A DNA stretch of 64,000 nucleotides from Gordonia sp. UBA7599 (GTDB lineage: Bacteria > Actinomycetota > Actinomycetes > Mycobacteriales > Mycobacteriaceae), in NCBI GenBank assembly GCA_002477755.1, contig DLKD01000036.1, positions 1 through 64,000 on the forward strand, given 5' to 3'. Made by a program: the position numbers and the translations under genes. Of the stretch, positions 39,735 to 50,539 are shown piece by piece (the stretch's first letter is position 1; the number at the start of each line of letters is the position of its first letter). The notes under the pieces were generated by a model, which saw only the letters and a list, made by a program, of their open reading frames with translations, was not told the origin of the DNA and did no database searches.

Positions 39735-41198
39735 CTACGGCTTCCTCGGGCAGCCGCCGGACGTGCGCGGGATAGGTAACGGGGCCACGTGTGGACCGCC
39801 CGCTTGCTCGTCGAGCCAGCTCAACGCATCGGGGAACCCCATGAAGGCGCTGCCGAAGTGTTCGGCGGGGTATTCGTGGTAGTCGACGGAGACGCCCAGC
39901 CGGCATTGTTCGGCGACGAACTCGCGCGTCCCCGCGGCGGGCACCCACCATTCGAAAGTGCCGTGGTAGACGTACAGCGGCGTGGCCGAAGCGAGTCCGC
40001 GCATCGCCGTGACGCGGAACAATTCCTTGGCCAGCGGGGTGTGGAACGGGTCGCCGCTGCGCGAGAACAGCTGCATCGGCCACAGCGTCACCCCCGCCAG
40101 CCCGGCCGGCGCGGTGCACGTGTCCTTGATCGGCGACGTCGCGATCCACTGGGCGAGGTTGTTCGCGTCGGCGAGCAGATAGGGCCGCTCACGGATGAGG
40201 CCGAGCGTCGCGACGTGGAGCACGCCGGTGGCCCAGGTCGCGTTCATCGAGGCGGGTAGCAAGGAGAAGTCGGCGGGTAGCCCGCCCAGGGCGGTGGCGC
40301 GGATGCGCCCCTTGAGCTCGGGTGCATAGTCGTCGAGTTGCTTGACCGCGCCGTGGGCCGCAATCGCCCCGCCGGAGAAGCCCGACATCACCATTGGGGA
40401 CTTGGAGATCCCCAGCGGTCTGGTCGTCAAGGGCAGGGTTCCAGGAGGCCGGGGCGTCGCTAGCGCGGCGTCGTGGTTGTCGATCGCGCGGATGGAGTCG
40501 AGGACGACACGGCCGGCGACGATCGGATCGGCGTAGGCCATTCGCGCGCCCTGGTGGTCGGGGACCACGACGATGAAACCGCGATCCAGGGCCCATTGGG
40601 TCGTCGGGGGCAGGCGGTCGGGATCGTTGGTGCCGAGGGTGCGCGGATGCGACATCGCGTACCCCGGCGTGCAACTGGCCCCGAGCGAGTCGATCGCCAG
40701 GTTGTTGATGAGGACGGGGGTGGGCCCGCGACCGGCGTGGTGGACCGTCGGATACAGGACGGTGGCGGTGCCGAACGACGGCTCGCCGCGCGAGTCGGTG
40801 GTGGCGAACTTCACTTGCACTGCGCGCCGGACCGGCTGGCCCAAGACGGCGCCGACGGTGGGCGTGACGCTGCGCGCGGCGATCACCGTTCCGGGGGGCA
40901 GCTTCGAGAGATTCGACGGCCAGTGGTCGAAGAACGGATCGCCCGTCGGAGACGGCAGCAGGGCCGCCCACACGTCGCGCACCTTGGAGTCTTCGTTTGT
41001 TCCCGCGGTACGCGGGTCGGGATGCTTGCGGTGCGGCACCGGTGGCGGCGGCGCGAGCCGGTTCATGAAGTCGCGAACTGCGGGCGGAGCGGGCGCGACG
41101 TTGAAGGGTTCGGCACTCGCTGTGGACGGTGCGACGAGGATCGCGGACACCGTCGTGGCGACAGCGGCCGCGACGAAGGCACGAACGGCTCCGACCAT
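39735..41198 (-). CDS. Secreted lipase (LIP family, PF03583-like)
   Basis: 487 residues with a signal peptide (VGAVRAFVAAAVATTVSAILVAPSTASA, cleavage after ASA). It has the secretory-lipase layout: ATVLYPTVHH ... PVLINNLAIDSLGASC, nucleophile Ser in MSGFSGGAIAA, and a late His in YPAEHFGSA. ATG 41198 has AGGGGGTGAC upstream. It would hydrolyse extracellular esters or triglycerides, consistent with a fatty-acid-using actinobacterium and the nearby glyoxylate genes. Confidence 0.85.
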   Translation of the reverse strand: MVGAVRAFVAAAVATTVSAILVAPSTASAEPFNVAPAPPAVRDFMNRLAPPPPVPHRKHPDPRTAGTNEDSKVRDVWAALLPSPTGDPFFDHWPSNLSKLPPGTVIAARSVTPTVGAVLGQPVRRAVQVKFATTDSRGEPSFGTATVLYPTVHHAGRGPTPVLINNLAIDSLGASCTPGYAMSHPRTLGTNDPDRLPPTTQWALDRGFIVVVPDHQGARMAYADPIVAGRVVLDSIRAIDNHDAALATPRPPGTLPLTTRPLGISKSPMVMSGFSGGAIAAHGAVKQLDDYAPELKGRIRATALGGLPADFSLLPASMNATWATGVLHVATLGLIRERPYLLADANNLAQWIATSPIKDTCTAPAGLAGVTLWPMQLFSRSGDPFHTPLAKELFRVTAMRGLASATPLYVYHGTFEWWVPAAGTREFVAEQCRLGVSVDYHEYPAEHFGSAFMGFPDALSWLDEQAGGPHVAPLPIPRTSGGCPRKP

Positions 41199-41273
41199 GT
41201 CACCCCCTGGTGTGCAAAGCGCTGGATTGGTCCCCACAGCCTAGGGTGCGCGGGGCCGTGTGGTTGGGTGACC

Positions 41274-41370
41274 GGGCTCGGTCGGCGGTGGATTGGGCTC
41301 GGTCGGTGGTGGATTGGGCTCGGTCGGTGGTGGATTGGGCTCAGTCGGCGGGGATTCAGGCTCGGTCGGC
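41274..41370 (+). repeat. Tandem repeat array C (5 x 21 bp)
   Basis: Five units with starts at 41274, 41295, 41316, 41337 and 41358, an exact 21-bp period; typical unit GGGCTCGGTCGGTGGTGGATT. The fourth unit reads GGGCTCAGTCGGCGG, close to the units of arrays A and B (49673-49787 and 50436-50598), so all three belong to one repeat family. It lies in the promoter region between the lipase and the alpha/beta hydrolase. Confidence 0.85.
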
Positions 41371-41373
41371 GCT

Positions 41374-41416
41374 GTATCCTGGTATTCAGGTACCTGATAC
41401 TGAGAATCTCGGATAC
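41374..41416. promoter_or_regulatory. GTATCC/GTATTC palindromic operator cluster
   Basis: Nested inverted repeats: outer GTATCC (41374-41379) and GGATAC (41411-41416), inner GTATTCAGGT/ACCTGATAC (41382-41400). They lie 10-50 bp before the hydrolase ATG, over the likely promoter. Confidence 0.55.
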
Positions 41417-41425
41417 ATTGGTGCA

Positions 41426-42364
41426 ATGGAGTCTGTAACCGAACGCGAAGACATCACCATTGCCCGTGACGGGCACGTGCTCGCTGCGTGGCACTACCCA
41501 CCGTCGTCGACCGATCTGACCGATGCAGACGGTCGTGCGCCTGCGGTCATTCTCGCCCACGGTTTGGGATTCACCCGCGACTGCGGACTCGACAGCTACG
41601 CGCAGGCCTTCGCGCAAGCGGGGATCCATGCAGTCGTCTTCGACTACTCGGGCTTCGGTGACAGCGAGGGCACCCCGCGCGACGTGGTGAACGTCGACTC
41701 CCAGCTGCGCGACTACGAATGCGCGATCACCGCGACGCGCGCCCTCGACGGCGTCGACCCGAAGCGCGTCGCCCTGTGGGGCACGTCCTACGCCGGTGGC
41801 ATCGTCGTCGCCGCGGCGGCGCGCGACGGTGAGATCGCTGCGGTCGTCTCGCAGTGCCCCAACCTCGACAACCTGGCGACGGCACTGTTCCTGGTTCGCA
41901 ACACTCCGCCCCTGCATGGAGCCTGGCTGGTCTCCGGCGTGCTGCGCGACGGCGTCCGTGCGCTGCGCAAGCGCGAGCCGTTCTACGTGCGCGCGATGGG
42001 GCCAGAGGGATCCGGCTCCGCCTACCCCTCCGACGACATCTGGGCCCGGCTCCAGCACCTGGCCGGTCCGACCTGGAACAACCGGATCGGGTTGCGAGAC
42101 TTCCTACGGCTGCCGGTCTTCCGTGCCGTCTCCTACCTCGACCGGCTTCCGTGTCGCATTCAGTTCATCGCGTGCGAACTCGACGACCTCACTCCGGTCG
42201 CGCCGACGCTGGCCGCCGCTAAGAAGCTGGGGGACAAGGCCGATCTGTACCGGGTGCAGGCCGGGCACTTCGACGTCTACGTCGAACCGTTCCTCGCCCC
42301 CGCCGTGGCTGCGCAGACCAAGTTCCTCGTCGGCGAATTGCGTGCGCCCGTCCCGGCGCGGTAG
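41426..42364 (+). CDS. Alpha/beta hydrolase
   Basis: 312 residues: oxyanion-hole block VILAHGLGFTRDCGL, nucleophile Ser in WGTSYAGGIV, Asp region ELDDLTP and His in QAGHFDVY. Such dienelactone-hydrolase-like proteins act on small esters. ATG 41426 is chosen because the sequence just upstream is the palindrome cluster and repeat array C. No signal peptide. It is convergent with ramB. Confidence 0.85.
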   Translation: MESVTEREDITIARDGHVLAAWHYPPSSTDLTDADGRAPAVILAHGLGFTRDCGLDSYAQAFAQAGIHAVVFDYSGFGDSEGTPRDVVNVDSQLRDYECAITATRALDGVDPKRVALWGTSYAGGIVVAAAARDGEIAAVVSQCPNLDNLATALFLVRNTPPLHGAWLVSGVLRDGVRALRKREPFYVRAMGPEGSGSAYPSDDIWARLQHLAGPTWNNRIGLRDFLRLPVFRAVSYLDRLPCRIQFIACELDDLTPVAPTLAAAKKLGDKADLYRVQAGHFDVYVEPFLAPAVAAQTKFLVGELRAPVPAR

Positions 42365-42376
42365 CCGCGGAGTCCG

Positions 42377-43846
42377 TTACGTGCCGTAGGGGGAGATGCT
42401 GCTGCGGTGCTCGTCGATGTGCAGCGGCACCCCCAACGGCGGGAAGGCGCGCTGCGGGCACTGGATGCGCTCGCAAACACGACAGCCCGATCCGATTGGG
42501 GTGACCCGGGCCTGTGGGCCGATCTCCAATCCGTCGGAGTAGACGACGCGTCCGGCGTGCCGCAGCTCACAGCCCAGCCCGATGGCGAACGTCTTGCCCG
42601 GCTGTCCGAACCGGGCGGCCCGTCGCTCGACCGTGCGCGCGACCCAGAAGTACTCGCGGCCGTCGGGCATCTGCGCGACCTGGCTGAGGATCTTGCCCGG
42701 CGATGCGAACGTCTCGTACACGTTCCACAGCGGGCAGGTGCCGCCGCTGGCGGAGAAGTGGAAACCGGTCGCGGACTGCCGCTTGGACATGTTGCCGGCA
42801 CGGTCGACGCGCACGAACGACCACGGGATGCCGCGCAGATTGGGGCGCTGCAGCGTCGAGAGGCGATGACAGATCGTCTCGTAGGAGACCGAATAGAACG
42901 CCGACAGTCGCTCGATGTCGTAGCGGAAGTCCTCGGCCGCGCCGTGGAATTGCTCATACGGCATCACCGCCGCTGCCGCGAAGTAGTTGGCCAGGCCCGA
43001 CATCGCCAGGGACCGCGCGTCGTCAGAGGTGAAGCCGGCGTCATCGACGAGTTCGCGCATGAGGTCGCCGTAGGCCAGGTACGCCAATTCGAAGGCCAGC
43101 TTGAAGGTCCGTTGACCGGGGCCGAGTGCCGCGGAGATCTCGAGGCGGCCCGCCTGGGCGTCGAACCGGTGCAGTACGTCGTCGCCAAGGTCGACGCGTC
43201 GCACGATTTGTACGCCGTGCACCGTCTCCAGACGATTCGCGATCTCGGTGCGCACGTCTCCGGAATGCATGCGCATCCGCGTCACCATCTCCTCGGCCGC
43301 GACGTCGAGGTCGTTGAAGTAATTGTGGTGCGCGGAGAAGAAATCGCGTACCTCCTCGTGGGGAGCGCTGATCGCACCGCGCATGCTGCGGTCGCCGCGC
43401 TCGTCAGTGACCGCGGCGAGTTGATCGGCGGCGACGCGATAGCGCCGGTGCAGGTTGACGACCGCCTCGGCGATGGCCGGGTGCGCGGCAACGATGTCGG
43501 CGAGCTCGTGCGGGTCCATGGGCGTGCCGGTGGACTCCGCGTCGCCGACGCGCTCCTCGATGAGTGCCTCACGGAGCTCTGCGACGAGCCGGATGTCGTC
43601 TTGCGGGTCGAAGAACCCGGCGTCCACGCCGAACACCTCGGAAATGCGGCCCAGCACCGCCGCCGTGAGCGGACGGGTGTCGTGCTCGATCTGGTTCAGG
43701 TAGGACGCCGAGATGCCCAGGTCGGTGGCGAGGCGCACCTGTGACATGCCGCGCTCGGCCCGCAACTGCTTGAGCCGAGAACCCACGTACTGGGAACCCG
43801 ACCGGCGGGCGTCGTCGGCTTTCGAGTGCGCGCGGGCGGTCGTCAC
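42377..43846 (-). CDS. ramB: RamB-type regulator of acetate metabolism
   Basis: 489-residue XRE-family regulator: N-terminal HTH (RLKQLRAERGMSQVRLATDLGISASYLNQIEHDTRPL), an IrrE-like middle domain with FELAYL, and a C-terminal DUF2083 domain containing clustered cysteines (CPLW, GCEL, CRVCERIQCP). In Corynebacterium RamB represses aceA, aceB and pta-ack genes; in M. tuberculosis Rv0465c controls icl1. Here aceA lies nearby with an evident RamB box. GTG 43846 is chosen; the gene is tightly divergent (24 bp) from a lipoprotein gene. Confidence 0.9.
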   Translation of the reverse strand: MTTARAHSKADDARRSGSQYVGSRLKQLRAERGMSQVRLATDLGISASYLNQIEHDTRPLTAAVLGRISEVFGVDAGFFDPQDDIRLVAELREALIEERVGDAESTGTPMDPHELADIVAAHPAIAEAVVNLHRRYRVAADQLAAVTDERGDRSMRGAISAPHEEVRDFFSAHHNYFNDLDVAAEEMVTRMRMHSGDVRTEIANRLETVHGVQIVRRVDLGDDVLHRFDAQAGRLEISAALGPGQRTFKLAFELAYLAYGDLMRELVDDAGFTSDDARSLAMSGLANYFAAAAVMPYEQFHGAAEDFRYDIERLSAFYSVSYETICHRLSTLQRPNLRGIPWSFVRVDRAGNMSKRQSATGFHFSASGGTCPLWNVYETFASPGKILSQVAQMPDGREYFWVARTVERRAARFGQPGKTFAIGLGCELRHAGRVVYSDGLEIGPQARVTPIGSGCRVCERIQCPQRAFPPLGVPLHIDEHRSSISPYGT

Positions 43847-44650: not shown

Positions 44651-44998
44651 TCCCGGCGCATCCCCGTCGTCGGAGCATGTGACTCCCCGCACACTGCGGC
44701 CGTGCACGGCCGTGGTTTCGCCGCATGACGCGCGCAACTACGGCGTTTGTCGTCGAACGAGCCCGACATCGAAATCCCAGTACGCGCGTACTTTTTGGCG
44801 CGAGCGGGCAGAACATTCACACCTCTATATTTGCAAACTTTGCAAAATAGCGCCATAGGATGCCCTGAATTTGCATTCCGAAACGATTGGACCTGCAGGT
44901 TTGTCGTGTGGCACGCTTACATCAGGCACCGCCTAGAGGCCTCGGATTCTTCGCAATCGTCACGGCCTTTTCGTAAGTCAAAGAAAGCGAATGCACTA
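44651..44998. promoter_or_regulatory. aceA upstream region (348 bp, no gene)
   Basis: Contains, in order: a CRP/GlxR-like site TGTGACTCCCCGCACA (44678-44693); a 16-bp perfect palindrome CGGCCGTGCACGGCCG (44697-44712), probably the lipoprotein-gene terminator; a perfect 14-bp palindrome AGTACGCGCGTACT followed by TTTTT (44779-44792); and the RamB box at 44830. The DNA is noticeably AT-richer than its neighbours. A two-codon ATG-CAC-TAA overlaps the aceA start (44991-44999). Confidence 0.65.
44830..44846. promoter_or_regulatory. RamB box
   Basis: TTTGCAAACTTTGCAAA; on the minus strand it contains AAAGTTTGCAAA, the RamB consensus established in Corynebacterium glutamicum. It lies about 150 bp before aceA and about 1 kb from ramB itself. 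Confidence 0.8.
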
Positions 44999-46291
44999 AT
45001 GAGCAACGTCGGAAAGCCCCGCACCGCCGCGGAAATCCAGAACGACTGGGACACCAACCCCCGCTGGAAGGGCATCACCCGCGACTACACCGCCGAGCAG
45101 GTTGCCGAGCTCCAGGGCAACGTCGTCGAGGATCACACCCTGGCCCGCCGCGGCGCGGAGGTCCTGTGGGACGGCGTGACCAAGGGCGACGGCTCCTACA
45201 TCAACGCGCTGGGCGCCCTCACTGGCAACATGGCCGTGCAGCAGGTCCGCGCGGGCCTCAAGGCCATCTACCTGTCGGGCTGGCAGGTCGCCGGTGACGC
45301 GAACCTCTCGGGCCACACCTACCCCGACCAGTCGCTCTACCCGGCCAACTCGGTCCCGGCCGTCGTGCGCCGCATCAACAACGCCCTCCTGCGCGCCGAC
45401 GAGATCTCGCGTGTCGAGGGTGACGAGTCGGTCGACAACTGGCTGGTGCCGATCGTCGCCGACGGTGAGGCCGGCTTCGGTGGCGCGCTCAACGTCTACG
45501 AGCTGCAGAAGGCCATGATCGCTGCGGGTGCCGCCGGTACCCACTGGGAGGATCAGCTCGCCTCGGAGAAGAAGTGTGGCCACCTCGGTGGCAAGGTGCT
45601 CATCCCGACCCAGCAGCACATCCGCACCCTGACCTCTGCTCGCCTGGCCGCCGATGTCGCCAACACCCCGACGGTCGTCATCGCCCGTACCGACGCTGAG
45701 GCCGCCACGCTGCTGACCTCCGACGTCGACGAGCGCGACCGCCCGTTCCTGGACGGCACCCGCACCAGCGAGGGCTTCTACGGGATCAAGAACGGCGTCG
45801 AGCCCTGCATCGCCCGCGCCAAGGCCTACGCCCCGTACGCGGACCTGATCTGGATGGAGACCGGCAAGCCCGACCTGGAGCTCGCGAAGAAGTTCGCCGA
45901 GGCCGTCAAGGCGGAGCACCCCGATCAGCTCCTGGCCTACAACTGCAGCCCGTCGTTCAACTGGAAGCAGCACCTGGACGATGACACCATCGCCAAGTTC
46001 CAGAACGAGCTCGGCGCGATGGGCTTCACCTTCCAGTTCATCACCCTGGCCGGCTTCCACGCCCTCAACTACTCGATGTTCGACCTGGCTTACGGCTACG
46101 CCCGCGAGCAGATGAAGGCGTACGTCGACCTGCAGGAGCGCGAGTTCGCTGCCGAGGAGCGCGGCTACACCGCCACCAAGCACCAGCGCGAGGTCGGTGC
46201 CGGCTACTTCGACAAGATCGCCACCACCGTCGACCCCAACACGTCGACCGCGGCGCTCAAGGGCTCGACCGAAGAGGGCCAGTTCCACTAG
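44999..46291 (+). CDS. aceA: Isocitrate lyase
   Basis: 430 residues: the first enzyme of the glyoxylate shunt, splitting isocitrate to glyoxylate and succinate. The catalytic cysteine is in [11 protein letters not shown], and [33 protein letters not shown] and [10 protein letters not shown] are diagnostic blocks of the short, bacterial ICL1 class. Start ATG 44999 gives the normal length. It is probably repressed by RamB, needed on acetate and fatty acids, and followed by a strong terminator before fadB2. Confidence 0.97.
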
Positions 46292-46484: not shown

Positions 46485-47357
46485 ATGGCAAGCCAGAAGA
46501 TCACGCGAGTCGGTGTCATCGGTGCCGGCCAGATGGGCGCAGGAATTGCCGAGGTGTGTGCGCGCGCCTCAGTCGATGTCCTGGTCTATGAATCCACCCG
46601 CGAACTCGCCGCTGCTGGCCGCGCCCGCGTCATGCGGTCGCTGGACCGCGGTGTGTCCAGCGGCAAGCTGACCGAGCGCGAGCGCGAGCAGGCCGCATGG
46701 CGGCTGCGCTTCACCTCCGACCTCGGTGACTTCGCCGACCGGCAGCTCGTCGTCGAGGCCGTCGTCGAGGACGAAGCGGTCAAGACCGCGATCTTCGCCG
46801 AGCTGGACAAGGTTGTCACCGACCCGAGCGCCGTGCTCGCGTCGAACACCTCCTCCATCCCGATCATGAAGCTTGGCATGGCCACCCAGAACGCGGCCCG
46901 CGTCGTTGGCATGCACTTCTTCAACCCGGTTCCGGTCCTTCCCCTGGTCGAACTGGTGACGACGCTGATGACCAGCCCCGAGGTGTCCGAGCGCGCCGAG
47001 GACTTCGCGCGCGACGTCCTGGGCAAGCAGGTCGTCCGTTCCGCCGACCGCTCGGGCTTCGTGGTCAACGCCCTCCTGGTGCCCTACCTCCTCTCCGCCA
47101 TCCGGATGGTCGAGTCCGGTTTCGCGACGGTCGAGGACATCGACAAGGCCATGGTCCTGGGCTGTGCGCACCCGATGGGTCCGCTCAAGCTGACCGACCT
47201 CGTGGGCCTCGACACCGTCAAGGCCATCGCCGACAAGATGTACGAGGAGTTCAAGGAGCCGCTGTACTCGCCGCCGCCGCTGCTGCTGCGCATGGTCGAG
47301 GCCGGGCGCATCGGTAAGAAGGCCGGACACGGGTTCTACCAGTACGACGCGAAGTAG
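46485..47357 (+). CDS. fadB2: 3-hydroxybutyryl-CoA dehydrogenase
   Basis: 290-residue single-domain 3-hydroxyacyl-CoA dehydrogenase: NAD motif VIGAGQMGAGIAEV, catalytic His in GMHFFNPVPVLPLVE, and the C-terminal block GKKAGHGFYQYD. It oxidises 3-hydroxyacyl-CoA in beta-oxidation or in the butyrate/PHB pathway. Order aceA-fadB2 is that of M. tuberculosis Rv0467-Rv0468. TTTGAGGAGCCG precedes ATG 46485. The metE-like gene follows 12 nt later and must share the transcript. Confidence 0.93.
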   Translation: MASQKITRVGVIGAGQMGAGIAEVCARASVDVLVYESTRELAAAGRARVMRSLDRGVSSGKLTEREREQAAWRLRFTSDLGDFADRQLVVEAVVEDEAVKTAIFAELDKVVTDPSAVLASNTSSIPIMKLGMATQNAARVVGMHFFNPVPVLPLVELVTTLMTSPEVSERAEDFARDVLGKQVVRSADRSGFVVNALLVPYLLSAIRMVESGFATVEDIDKAMVLGCAHPMGPLKLTDLVGLDTVKAIADKMYEEFKEPLYSPPPLLLRMVEAGRIGKKAGHGFYQYDAK

Positions 47358-47369
47358 CGGGTCTGCACT

Positions 47370-49667
47370 ATGACGAGTCCGGACGGCATCGAGTACGGTT
47401 CGTCGATTCTGGGTTATCCCCGTATCGGCGCCCACCGCGAGCTGAAGGCTGCCCTCGAGGGCTACTGGCACGGCTCGTTGAGCCGCGACGAGTTGCTGGC
47501 CACCGGTCGCGAACTCGCCGACGGCGTCTGGAACGAACTGGCCGCCACCGGGCTCGAGCAGGTGCCGGGCAACACGTTCTCGTTCTACGACCACGTGTTG
47601 GACAACGCGGTGTTGTTCGGCGCGATCTCGCCGCGGTTCACCGACCTCGTCGACGAGCTGGAACCGATCGACCTGTACTTCGCGATGGCGCGCGGCAAGC
47701 CCGGGCATCCGCCGTTGGAGTTGGTCAAGTACTTCAACACGAACTACTTCTACCGCCAGCCTGAGATCGCCCCGGACACGGTGTTCGCGCTGAACGCCGA
47801 GGGGCTGCTCGACGAGCATCGTCGTGCCAAGGCCGAAGGCATCGAACTGCGCCCGGTTATTCTCGGTCCTACCTCGCTGCTGCTGCTGAGCAAGGCCGCG
47901 CCCGGGTCGCCGGAGGGCTTCGCGCCGATCGATCGGCTCGACGACCTGCTGGCGGTCTACGCGGACTTGTTCGAGCGTCTGGCGAAGCAGGGCTGCAAGT
48001 GCGTGCAACTCGACGAGCCTTGCTTCACCAGCGACCGTACAGAGTCTGATCTGGGTGCGCTGCGCCAGGCCTACACCGAGCTGAGCCGTGGCGCGCTGCG
48101 CCCGCGCATCCTCGTCACCGGACCCTACGGCGACCTCGCTGACGCGCTGCCGATCCTGGCATCGACGAATATCGAGGCGATCGGCGTCGACCTGGTCAGC
48201 GAGCCGATGTCGGCGGCCGAACTGGGTGCGGTGCCCGGGCTCAAGCGCAAGCGCCTCTATGCCGGCGTGATCGACGGCCGCAACGTGTGGAAGGCCGCCA
48301 AGGGCGGCAAGCTCGACTTCCTCCTGGAGATCAAGGAACACATCCCCGACGTGGTCGTCTCGACGTCGTGCTCGTTGATGCACGTCCCGATCGACGTCCT
48401 GATCGAGCCCGACCTGCCCGGCGACGTCGCCGATCGGTTGTCCTTCGCCAAGCAGAAGGTCGCCGAGGTCGTGGCGCTGGCGAAGGCCGTCACCCACGGT
48501 GCGCCGGAGCACTGGTATTCGCGGCCGGCGACGGTGCACTTCAAGCTCAAGCACGACGTCCGTCAGCGCGTGGCCAACATCCGCCCGGATCAGCGCCAGC
48601 GGCTCCCTTACGCGGAACGCAAGCCGTTGCAGGACAAGGCGCTGGGTCTGCCGATCATCCCGACGACGACCTTGGGCTCGTTTCCACAGACCAACGAGGT
48701 GCGCCAGGCGCGGTACTACTACGGCCAGGGCCGGCTGTCGTGGGAGGAGTACGCCCAGCGACTGCGTGACGAGATCAAGCGCGTCATCGAGTTGCAGGAG
48801 GACATCGGCCTGGATGTCCTGGTGCACGGCGAGGCCGAGCGCAACGACATGGTGCAGTACTTCTCCGAACTGATGGACGGCTACGCCGCAACCCACCAGG
48901 GTTGGGTGCAGGTGTACGGCTCCCGCTGCGTGCGCCCGCCGATCATCTACGGCGACATCAAGCGCAAGCACCCGATGACCGTCGAGTGGACAGGCTACGC
49001 ACAGTCACTGACCGACAAGCCGGTCAAGGGCATCCTCACCGGTCCGGTCACGATGCTGGCGCGTTCGTTCGTGCGCCAGGACCAGCCGATGTATGAGACC
49101 GCCGAGCAGATCGCACTGGCGGTGCGCGATGAGATCGCCGACCTGGAGAAGGCCGGCATCAAAATCATTCAGGTCGACGAGCCGTCGATCCGCGAACTCC
49201 TGCCGCTGCGCGAGCGCGGACGCCAGGGCTATTTGGACTGGGCGGTCAACGCTTTCCGCCTCGCCGTCGGCGGCGCGAAGCCGGAGACGCAGATCCACAC
49301 GCACCTGGGCTACTCATCGATCAGCCGGGTTGTCGACGCGTTCGAGGCGATGGATGCCGACGTGGTGTCGGTCGTCGCGACGCGGCACCTGGACTGGGTC
49401 TTCGCACAGTTGGCGAAGGGCACAACCCTGTCGCATGGTGTTGGGCCGGGTGTGTACGAGAGCCGTAGCGCGCTGATCCCCGAGATCGACGAGATCGACG
49501 ACCTCATCCAGTTGGCCGCCCGCTACATCGATCCGAAGCGGTTGTGGGTCAACCCCGACGGTGGGCTCAAGACGCGCCACTACTGGCAGTTGGAGCCGTC
49601 GCTGCGGAACATGGTCGCTGCCGCGCGCCGCGAGCGCCGTCGAGTTGAATCTGGCGACGACGACTAG
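47370..49667 (+). CDS. MetE homologue lacking zinc ligands
   Basis: 765 residues, full length with both TIM-barrel domains of cobalamin-independent methionine synthase, and conserved blocks such as LGYPRIGAHRELKAALE, TTTLGSFPQTNEVRQAR, GEAERNDMVQYFSE, YGSRCVRPPII and IIQVDEPSIRELLPLR. However, of the four zinc ligands of E. coli MetE only the histidine is kept (His645 in THLGY); the Cys that should be two residues later is Gly647, the Glu is Val669 (VSVVATR) and the last Cys is Gly731 (NPDGGLKTR). It therefore cannot bind the catalytic zinc as MetE does. It lies in the fadB2 transcript without a methionine or B12 riboswitch. Function unknown. Confidence 0.85.
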   Translation: MTSPDGIEYGSSILGYPRIGAHRELKAALEGYWHGSLSRDELLATGRELADGVWNELAATGLEQVPGNTFSFYDHVLDNAVLFGAISPRFTDLVDELEPIDLYFAMARGKPGHPPLELVKYFNTNYFYRQPEIAPDTVFALNAEGLLDEHRRAKAEGIELRPVILGPTSLLLLSKAAPGSPEGFAPIDRLDDLLAVYADLFERLAKQGCKCVQLDEPCFTSDRTESDLGALRQAYTELSRGALRPRILVTGPYGDLADALPILASTNIEAIGVDLVSEPMSAAELGAVPGLKRKRLYAGVIDGRNVWKAAKGGKLDFLLEIKEHIPDVVVSTSCSLMHVPIDVLIEPDLPGDVADRLSFAKQKVAEVVALAKAVTHGAPEHWYSRPATVHFKLKHDVRQRVANIRPDQRQRLPYAERKPLQDKALGLPIIPTTTLGSFPQTNEVRQARYYYGQGRLSWEEYAQRLRDEIKRVIELQEDIGLDVLVHGEAERNDMVQYFSELMDGYAATHQGWVQVYGSRCVRPPIIYGDIKRKHPMTVEWTGYAQSLTDKPVKGILTGPVTMLARSFVRQDQPMYETAEQIALAVRDEIADLEKAGIKIIQVDEPSIRELLPLRERGRQGYLDWAVNAFRLAVGGAKPETQIHTHLGYSSISRVVDAFEAMDADVVSVVATRHLDWVFAQLAKGTTLSHGVGPGVYESRSALIPEIDEIDDLIQLAARYIDPKRLWVNPDGGLKTRHYWQLEPSLRNMVAAARRERRRVESGDDD

Positions 49668-49672
49668 GCCGC

Positions 49673-49787
49673 GACTGGGCCCGGAAGTCCCGCGAGTGGG
49701 CCCTCCCACGCCGCCGAGTGGGCCCTCCCACGCCGCCGAGTGGGCCAGGAAATCCCGCGAGTGGGTCGTCTCACGCCGCCGAGTGGG
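49673..49787 (-). repeat. Tandem repeat array A (6 x 21-22 bp)
   Basis: On the plus strand GAGTGGG cores (first one GACTGGG) occur at 49673, 49694, 49716, 49738, 49759 and 49781. On the minus strand the unit reads GGAGGGCCCACTCGGCGGCG, nearly the unit of array B, which lies on the plus strand at the other side of the methyltransferase gene. So A and B are inverted arrays of one repeat. Confidence 0.88.
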
Positions 49788-49819
49788 TGGTGAGTCAGTG
49801 CAGCGCTATCGTTTGCGGA

Positions 49820-50539
49820 GTGACTGAGGAAGACGTGCGCGCCGCCTACTCACGACGAGCCGTCGAGTACATCGATCTGTTCGGCAACATCGAGTCGGCG
49901 TCCGACGTCGATCGGACCCGGTTGGTTGAGTGGGTCGGGGGGCTCAGCGGCCGAATCATCGACGTCGGTTGCGGTCCAGGGCAATGGACACGGTTTCTCC
50001 ATGGCGCTGGTGCTTATATCGCCGGTGTCGATGTAGTGCCGGAGTTCATCGACGAGGCGCGTCGCGCGCACGACGGTCTCGAGTTTCGGCTCGGCGACGC
50101 CCGACGACTTGATGAGAGGGACAGCAGTCTCGGTGGAATCCTTGCGTGGTTCTCGCTGATCCACTTGGCGCCGCAGCAGCTTGACGTGGCGCTCGCCGAG
50201 TTCGCCCGGTGTGTCCGGACAGGCGGAGGCCTGGCGATCGGATACTTCGTCGGGACCGAGCTCATGACCTTTGACCACGCGGTGACCTTGGGCTACTCCT
50301 GGCCCCCCGAGTTGCTTGCGGAACACGTTGCGGCCGCGGGGTTCGACGTCGTTGATGGGGACGTGAGATCTGCGTCGGAGACACGTGACTTAGGCCGGCT
50401 CTTCGCCGTGCGGAGTCTGACGAATCCCGTGATGACCCAGTGGGCGACCGAGGACGACCCAGTGGGCGACCGAGGACGACCCAGTGGGCGGGCTAGGAGG
50501 GCCCAGTCGGCGGACGCGGAAGCCCAGTCGGCGGGCTAG
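49820..50539 (+). CDS. SAM-dependent methyltransferase ending in repeat DNA
   Basis: 239 residues; SAM motif I is IIDVGCGPGQWTRFL, followed by VDVVPEFIDEAR and GDARRLDERDSSLGGILAWFSLIHL. It begins at GTG 49820. The final about 30 residues (from WATEDDPVGDRGRPSGR on) are encoded by array B and look like read-through of the repeat rather than an evolved domain. The gene is boxed in by inverted arrays A and B and lies between metE-like and PPK2 genes. Substrate unknown. Confidence 0.85.
   Translation: MTEEDVRAAYSRRAVEYIDLFGNIESASDVDRTRLVEWVGGLSGRIIDVGCGPGQWTRFLHGAGAYIAGVDVVPEFIDEARRAHDGLEFRLGDARRLDERDSSLGGILAWFSLIHLAPQQLDVALAEFARCVRTGGGLAIGYFVGTELMTFDHAVTLGYSWPPELLAEHVAAAGFDVVDGDVRSASETRDLGRLFAVRSLTNPVMTQWATEDDPVGDRGRPSGRARRAQSADAEAQSAG

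Follow-up and report, generated by a model that had tools for sequence, protein, structure and literature searches.

A full-length MetE homologue without the canonical zinc site, encoded beside aceA and fadB2 in Gordonia and related actinobacteria

Gene organization at the locus

The window, meaning the whole stretch of 64,000 nucleotides from Gordonia sp. UBA7599 that was analysed, contains an intact open reading frame with an ATG start at 47370-49667 on the forward strand, which encodes a MetE homologue of 765 residues and follows two genes of the same orientation. The names fadB2 and RamB used below are those that we assume for the respective genes.

42377..43804, minus strand: RamB-like regulator with an HTH and a ScfRs short-chain fatty acyl-CoA regulator domain, divergent from aceA
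44996..46291, plus strand: aceA, isocitrate lyase (PF00463, 335 bits)
46488..47357, plus strand: fadB2, 3-hydroxyacyl-CoA dehydrogenase (PF02737 and PF00725), ending 12 bp before the MetE-like gene
47370..49667, plus strand: zinc-less full-length MetE homologue, 765 aa (Pfam Meth_synt_1 and Meth_synt_2)

A secretory-lipase family protein (39738-41237, minus strand) and an alpha/beta hydrolase (41129-42361, plus strand) are encoded beyond the RamB-like regulator, and a class I methyltransferase-domain protein (49718-50539, plus strand) is encoded downstream of the MetE-like gene.

The initial annotation described the product as a full-length MetE homologue with both domains, and the domain searches agree, with PF08267 covering residues 11-324 (341 bits) and PF01717 residues 430-753 (407 bits), each at near full domain length. 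The protein passes the NCBIfam model NF003556 (943.7 bits, cut-off 541) and falls below the cut-off of TIGR01371 (887.7 bits, cut-off 929.95). Its AlphaFold model has a pLDDT of 90.3 and a pTM of 0.88, and the first 29 Foldseek matches to this model are all MetE-type structures with a query TM of 0.80-0.91. A search of the same genome for a second methionine synthase, which had been proposed along with the initial annotation, found both a canonical metE (contig C100, zinc ligands H/C/E/C) and metH. The genome also encodes a third, short MetE-like protein (L003, G000:C113:4920-5864) in which an HSC motif is followed by a TCG motif, and its gene adjoins frames that by eye resemble MnmA and LigA.

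The gene order around the MetE-like gene is conserved. In a tblastn scan of 100 loci (96 distinct proteins), 94 loci had at least 3.5 kb of upstream sequence. In all 94, fadB2 and aceA both precede the MetE-like gene in the same orientation, at distances of up to 1 kb and 3.5 kb, respectively. The RamB-like gene was detected in divergent orientation upstream in 39/94 loci, and an alcohol dehydrogenase gene lies downstream in 26/95. In several Rhodococcus, a long hairpin is located between fadB2 and the MetE-like gene (L186:4248-4289, with similar hairpins in L189, L056, L059, L118, L131, and L136); both arms of the stem vary from one species to another, two examples fold with energies of roughly -41 and -44 kcal/mol, and a similar hairpin lies near one canonical metE (L178). 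An intergenic repeat, a terminator, and a leader element are the candidates for this hairpin.

Replacement of active-site residues

A MAFFT alignment was prepared from 220 full-length sequences (186 distinct), including E. coli K-12 MetE (NP_418273.1), and the 120 distinct sequences without Cys at E. coli position 643 are referred to here as the zinc-less set; the canonical comparison comprises 66 rows, or 65 once the mis-framed row L229 is left out. In this alignment, H641, C643, E665, and C726 of E. coli MetE correspond to H645, G647, V669, and G731 of the window protein. The roles of further MetE residues are taken as follows: we take His694 to be the proton donor (general acid), Trp561 to be a folate contact facing the pterin, E605, R515, and C516 to form the folate pocket with E605 on the pterin side, and R17, K20, and K117 to be contacts of the polyglutamate tail. 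The zinc ligands and the substrate residues S433, E484, and D599 were assigned after a published account of methionine synthases (PMC7857596). The principal positions are listed below by their codons in the window.

48000..48002, plus strand: Cys211, invariant in the clade (C in 120/120; W in 61/66 canonical rows)
49062..49064, plus strand: Arg565 replacing Trp561 (R 115, F 4, L 1, n = 120; W conserved 1.00 in 65 canonical rows)
49302..49304, plus strand: His645, the sole retained zinc ligand (E. coli H641), kept in 120/120 zinc-less sequences
49308..49310, plus strand: Gly647 replacing zinc ligand Cys643 (G 60, T 27, A 13, P 8, S 6, N 4, E 2, n = 120)
49374..49376, plus strand: Val669 replacing zinc ligand Glu665 (V 117, I 3, n = 120)
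49464..49466, plus strand: Arg699 replacing His694 (R in 120/120; H conserved 1.00 in 65 canonical rows)
49560..49562, plus strand: Gly731 replacing zinc ligand Cys726 (G 119, F 1, n = 120)

The loss of three of the four zinc ligands, with only His645 left, had been read from the single window protein and now extends to all 120 distinct sequences. A displacement of the ligands or a misalignment is rejected, as Cys is not the commonest residue in any column within 6 columns of a lost ligand, and His is the commonest there only at 643 and 645 of the HTH motif and at H737. A sequencing or assembly error is likewise rejected because 120 distinct sequences share the change. The replacements of His694 by Arg699 and of Trp561 by Arg565 are active-site changes beyond those in the initial annotation.

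The homocysteine-binding residues S433, E484, and D599 (S437, E488, and D603 in the window protein) are kept in 120/120 zinc-less sequences. Retention of the folate side, as claimed initially, is true in part. The presumed tail contacts are kept, with R17 and K20 in 120/120 sequences and K or R at position 117 in 116/120, and within the presumed folate pocket R515 is found in 120, C516 in 108, and E605 in 115 of the 120 sequences; the part that did not stand concerns the pterin, where the presumed contact W561 is lost in 120/120 and the pterin-side Glu is lost in five. These five sequences (L081, L082, L150, L152, and L153, three of them from Lolliginicoccus) are the same ones that carry Phe (4) or Leu (1) instead of Arg at position 561. 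The second Arg and E605 are thus both lost in five sequences, and the two-arginine pocket is not universal in the clade. This joint change suggests that the positions of Arg565 and Glu609 are coupled and that their side chains may interact.

The zinc-less and canonical groups share 174 columns that are at least 95% conserved in both and differ at 15 columns that are conserved within each group. Ten of the 15 lie in sequence at or beside zinc or methyl-transfer residues (positions 431, 561, 665, 667, 692, 693, 694, 696, 698, and 726). The replacement residues are nearly or fully invariant in the clade (R699 in 120/120, E697, T671, and S698), and other clade-specific residues include Gln130 (119/120) and His737 (113/120). 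Taken together, these changes amount to a concentrated and uniform rebuild of the reaction centre rather than drift.

Selection and phylogeny

By a simple Nei-Gojobori count, dN/dS is 0.08-0.11 for the window gene against its three nearest orthologues, and six further close pairs give 0.04-0.14; values of 0.19-0.39 for five more distant orthologues speak against the main reading. Low dN/dS and the conserved replacement residues agree with the initial view that the gene is otherwise under (purifying) selection, and the idea of a decaying pseudogene is rejected because the frames are intact and the ratios low.

A quick tree, rooted on the long-branched E. coli sequence, was computed from 51 chosen sequences (22 zinc-less and 29 canonical). 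In it, the zinc-less proteins form one side of a branch with an SH-aLRT of 100 and a stem of 0.89, which supports a single origin of the clade. The clade does not stand beside the canonical MetE of its own family and falls among MetE of other actinobacterial families with weak support (86-93), so that a simple duplication within the family is not shown by this tree. The zinc-less copy may have arisen by within-family duplication, may descend from an older copy, or may have been acquired.

Distribution in the family

Distribution was counted by score, with the ligands directly inspected in the 120 distinct sequences. A sample of 301 genomes of the family gave 150 matches of at least 945 bits, one per genome, at 58-100% identity; nine further genomes have a best E-value below 1e-270, and the remaining genomes no better than about 1e-224. 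By score, the zinc-less gene is therefore present in at least 159/301 genomes and in 24/31 genera, among them Gordonia, Williamsia, Nocardia, Rhodococcus, Aldersonia, Skermania, Lolliginicoccus, and Smaragdicoccus. Within Gordonia itself, 7/59 genomes carry the gene. One Gordonia genome without a full-length zinc-less match has a segment (G013:C2:420775-420978) with 76% identity to window-protein residues 693-760, which is apparently what remains of a lost gene, and Gordonia shandongensis (G036:C12:93402-98436) has, in addition to the zinc-less homologue, two more MetE homologues arranged in tandem.

Outside the family, the order, phylum, and class samples searched yielded no zinc-less case. 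The exact DNA pattern for NPDGGLKTR, which misses variants such as PDGGLKSR and PDFGLKTR, occurred in 3/200 genomes of the order sample (30 family members) and, missing variants in the same way, in 3/396 genomes of the phylum sample (15 family members), in each case only in the family of the window. When 148 class genomes were searched with the protein, 25 loci outside the family were inspected, apart from 7 further outside-family matches. Of these 25 loci, 24 have the full canonical set of checked residues, and the remaining one (L229), mis-framed in the alignment, has the canonical motifs once the correct frame is used.

Relation to other methionine synthases of the same genomes

A cobalamin riboswitch precedes canonical metE at 18/20 chosen loci, including that of the window's genome, and the two canonical loci without it (L200 and L202) belong to G065 and G094, both genomes without metH. 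The cobalamin riboswitch was found at 0/20 chosen zinc-less loci, and RNA elements of any kind were found neither in the window nor at these 20 loci. A separate scan of six loci found one riboswitch, at canonical metE in L187. None was seen at L001 because only about 0.2 kb of upstream sequence is present there.

The metH gene was found in 280/301 family genomes, with 274 scoring above the family's own cut-off. Twenty of the 21 genomes without metH were listed and the last, by elimination, is G323 (best MetE match 2.7e-177). The zinc-less gene is present in two of these 21 genomes (G065 and G094), and since both also hold a MetE with four ligands, the zinc-less protein is never the sole methionine synthase in the 301-genome sample.

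Comparison with known systems

In common with MetE of E. coli, A. thaliana, and C. albicans, the zinc-less clade has the two-domain fold, S433, E484, and D599, and most of the presumed tail contacts; it differs in the replacement of C643, E665, C726, H694, and W561, in having no B12 riboswitch at the loci searched, and in its aceA-fadB2 neighbours. Uroporphyrinogen decarboxylase and its relatives are metal-free enzymes of the barrel fold, but they and the wider barrel superfamily give weak fold matches with 11-15% identity over about half of the window protein and have no N-terminal MetE domain. We presume that identity of the zinc-less protein with an epoxyalkane:CoM transferase can be set aside. 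The core methionine synthases MesA-D lack the N-terminal folate domain and have at most 386 aa (PMC7857596), and the window protein, at 765 aa with an N-terminal domain, is not of this kind. The same paper describes MesB-like proteins of Chloroflexales that are also MetE relatives without conserved zinc residues (FSHG, YCDQ, or YREQ), but these are core proteins without the N-terminal domain and belong to another phylum, whereas the clade of the window is full length and uniform across a family (PMC7857596). Loss of the zinc residues therefore has a precedent in these core proteins, and a full-length, uniformly zinc-less MetE clade appears undescribed, no account of one having been found in open-licence PubMed Central text.

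Sulfate limitation in Rhodococcus qingshengii IGTS8

In the IGTS8 proteome study, a protein reported as MetE (IGTS8_peg5907) was 190- to 273-fold more abundant with dibenzothiophene than with sulfate, ranked in the top ten of the sulfur proteome by abundance under sulfate starvation, and contained 2 cysteines and 7 methionines (PMC8557817). The authors read it there as a MetE with few cysteines and proposed its knock-out to force the use of MetH (PMC8557817). The cultures were grown on glucose as the carbon source with cyanocobalamin in the medium (PMC8557817), so that a canonical metE with a riboswitch is expected to be repressed.

According to the same study, peg5938-5940 encode choline sulfatase, TauD, and a ROK regulator, and peg5948 encodes MshA (PMC8557817). 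In seven genomes of Rhodococcus genus g23, taken as R. erythropolis-like, a distance of 35-38 kb separates the zinc-less gene from mshA, and canonical metE lies 0.69-3.7 Mb from the region of mshA and the zinc-less gene in the three of these genomes in which they share a contig. The order after the zinc-less gene in one of them (G137) is sulfatase, TauD, ROK, and mshA, as in IGTS8. The zinc-less protein has 2 cysteines in 7/7 R. erythropolis-like genomes and canonical MetE has 4 in 4/4 readable rows; methionine counts are about 7-8 in both (initiator included) and do not discriminate. From the synteny in relatives and the cysteine count, we infer that IGTS8_peg5907 is the zinc-less protein, which would then be strongly induced by sulfate limitation in Rhodococcus.

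Possible functions of the zinc-less protein

The initial annotation considered methionine synthesis by the known mechanism unlikely, and the replacement of zinc ligands, His694, and Trp561 strengthens this view; a methionine synthase of the zinc-thiolate type is thus unlikely on the evidence of the residues. With three zinc ligands and the presumed proton-donor His replaced, the label of MetE methionine synthase should not be applied to the zinc-less protein. The protein is probably a neofunctionalised, zinc-independent MetE homologue that binds an amino-acid ligand and acts as an enzyme of sulfur or C1/C2 amino-acid metabolism. In such an enzyme, an alpha-amino acid would still bind in the homocysteine/methionine pocket (S437, E488, and D603, all invariant), Arg565 and Arg699 may hold a negatively charged group on the substrate or co-substrate, and there would be no activation of a thiolate by zinc. 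Small or hydrophobic residues and two Arg at the sites of zinc, His, and Trp would suit an anionic ligand or co-substrate better than a metal-activated thiol.

Genomic context and the published expression data point to a sulfur- and/or glyoxylate-linked role. The roles suggested initially, namely another methyltransferase, a methyl-acceptor variant, and a regulator, are all still candidates. A more specific proposal, which is offered tentatively and may well need revision, is a MetE-fold enzyme family of full length with a zinc-free, arginine-bearing site that would act on a sulfur- or acid-bearing amino acid under sulfate limitation and be tied to the isocitrate lyase operon. The main weakness of the proposed function as a whole is that IGTS8 was grown on glucose, so that the link to aceA and the link to sulfur do not yet fit one pathway.

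Among the alternatives, a pseudoenzyme or sensor that binds methionine, homocysteine, or folylpolyglutamate and regulates another protein without catalysis of its own is unlikely, though it survives better than the others. In keeping with a sensor, the residues that hold the ligand survive where catalytic ones do not, and a regulator gene was detected nearby in 39/94 loci, but the near or full invariance of the replacement residues fits new chemistry better than loss, and the reported rank of the presumed IGTS8 orthologue among the most abundant sulfur-proteome members is high for a sensor.

Methionine synthesis by a different mechanism, possibly in a form that dispensed with its Cys ligands to save sulfur, is somewhat less probable still. 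The retained homocysteine-binding residues, the induction by sulfate limitation (if the IGTS8 assignment holds), and the low-cysteine reading by the IGTS8 authors all speak for it. Against it stand the replacement of Glu, the presumed proton-donor His, and the presumed folate Trp besides Cys, the finding that the protein is the sole methionine synthase in no sampled genome, and the absence of the B12 riboswitch at 20/20 zinc-less loci examined.

A rebuilt metal site with other ligands (e.g., His645, His737, and Glu697), which would make a non-thiolate metal enzyme, is the least credible alternative, since position 737, although His in 113/120 sequences where canonical MetE mostly has G, T, or S, is Y in 5/120 and Q and R in one each, even if the invariant E697 in place of Asp692 might serve such a site.

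Implications

If the reading of the zinc-less protein as a zinc-independent enzyme is true, a "methionine synthase" that passes NF003556 has a different function in Rhodococcus, Nocardia, Gordonia, Williamsia, and their relatives, and metabolic models and sulfur-regulation studies that use the methionine synthase label would be wrong at that step. The protein called MetE in the IGTS8 biodesulfurisation proteome study, and put forward there as a knock-out target, would then have an unassigned activity. The clade would also represent a natural experiment, in which the metal site of a zinc enzyme has been removed and its substrate pocket kept in more than 100 genomes, beside a gene of central carbon metabolism.
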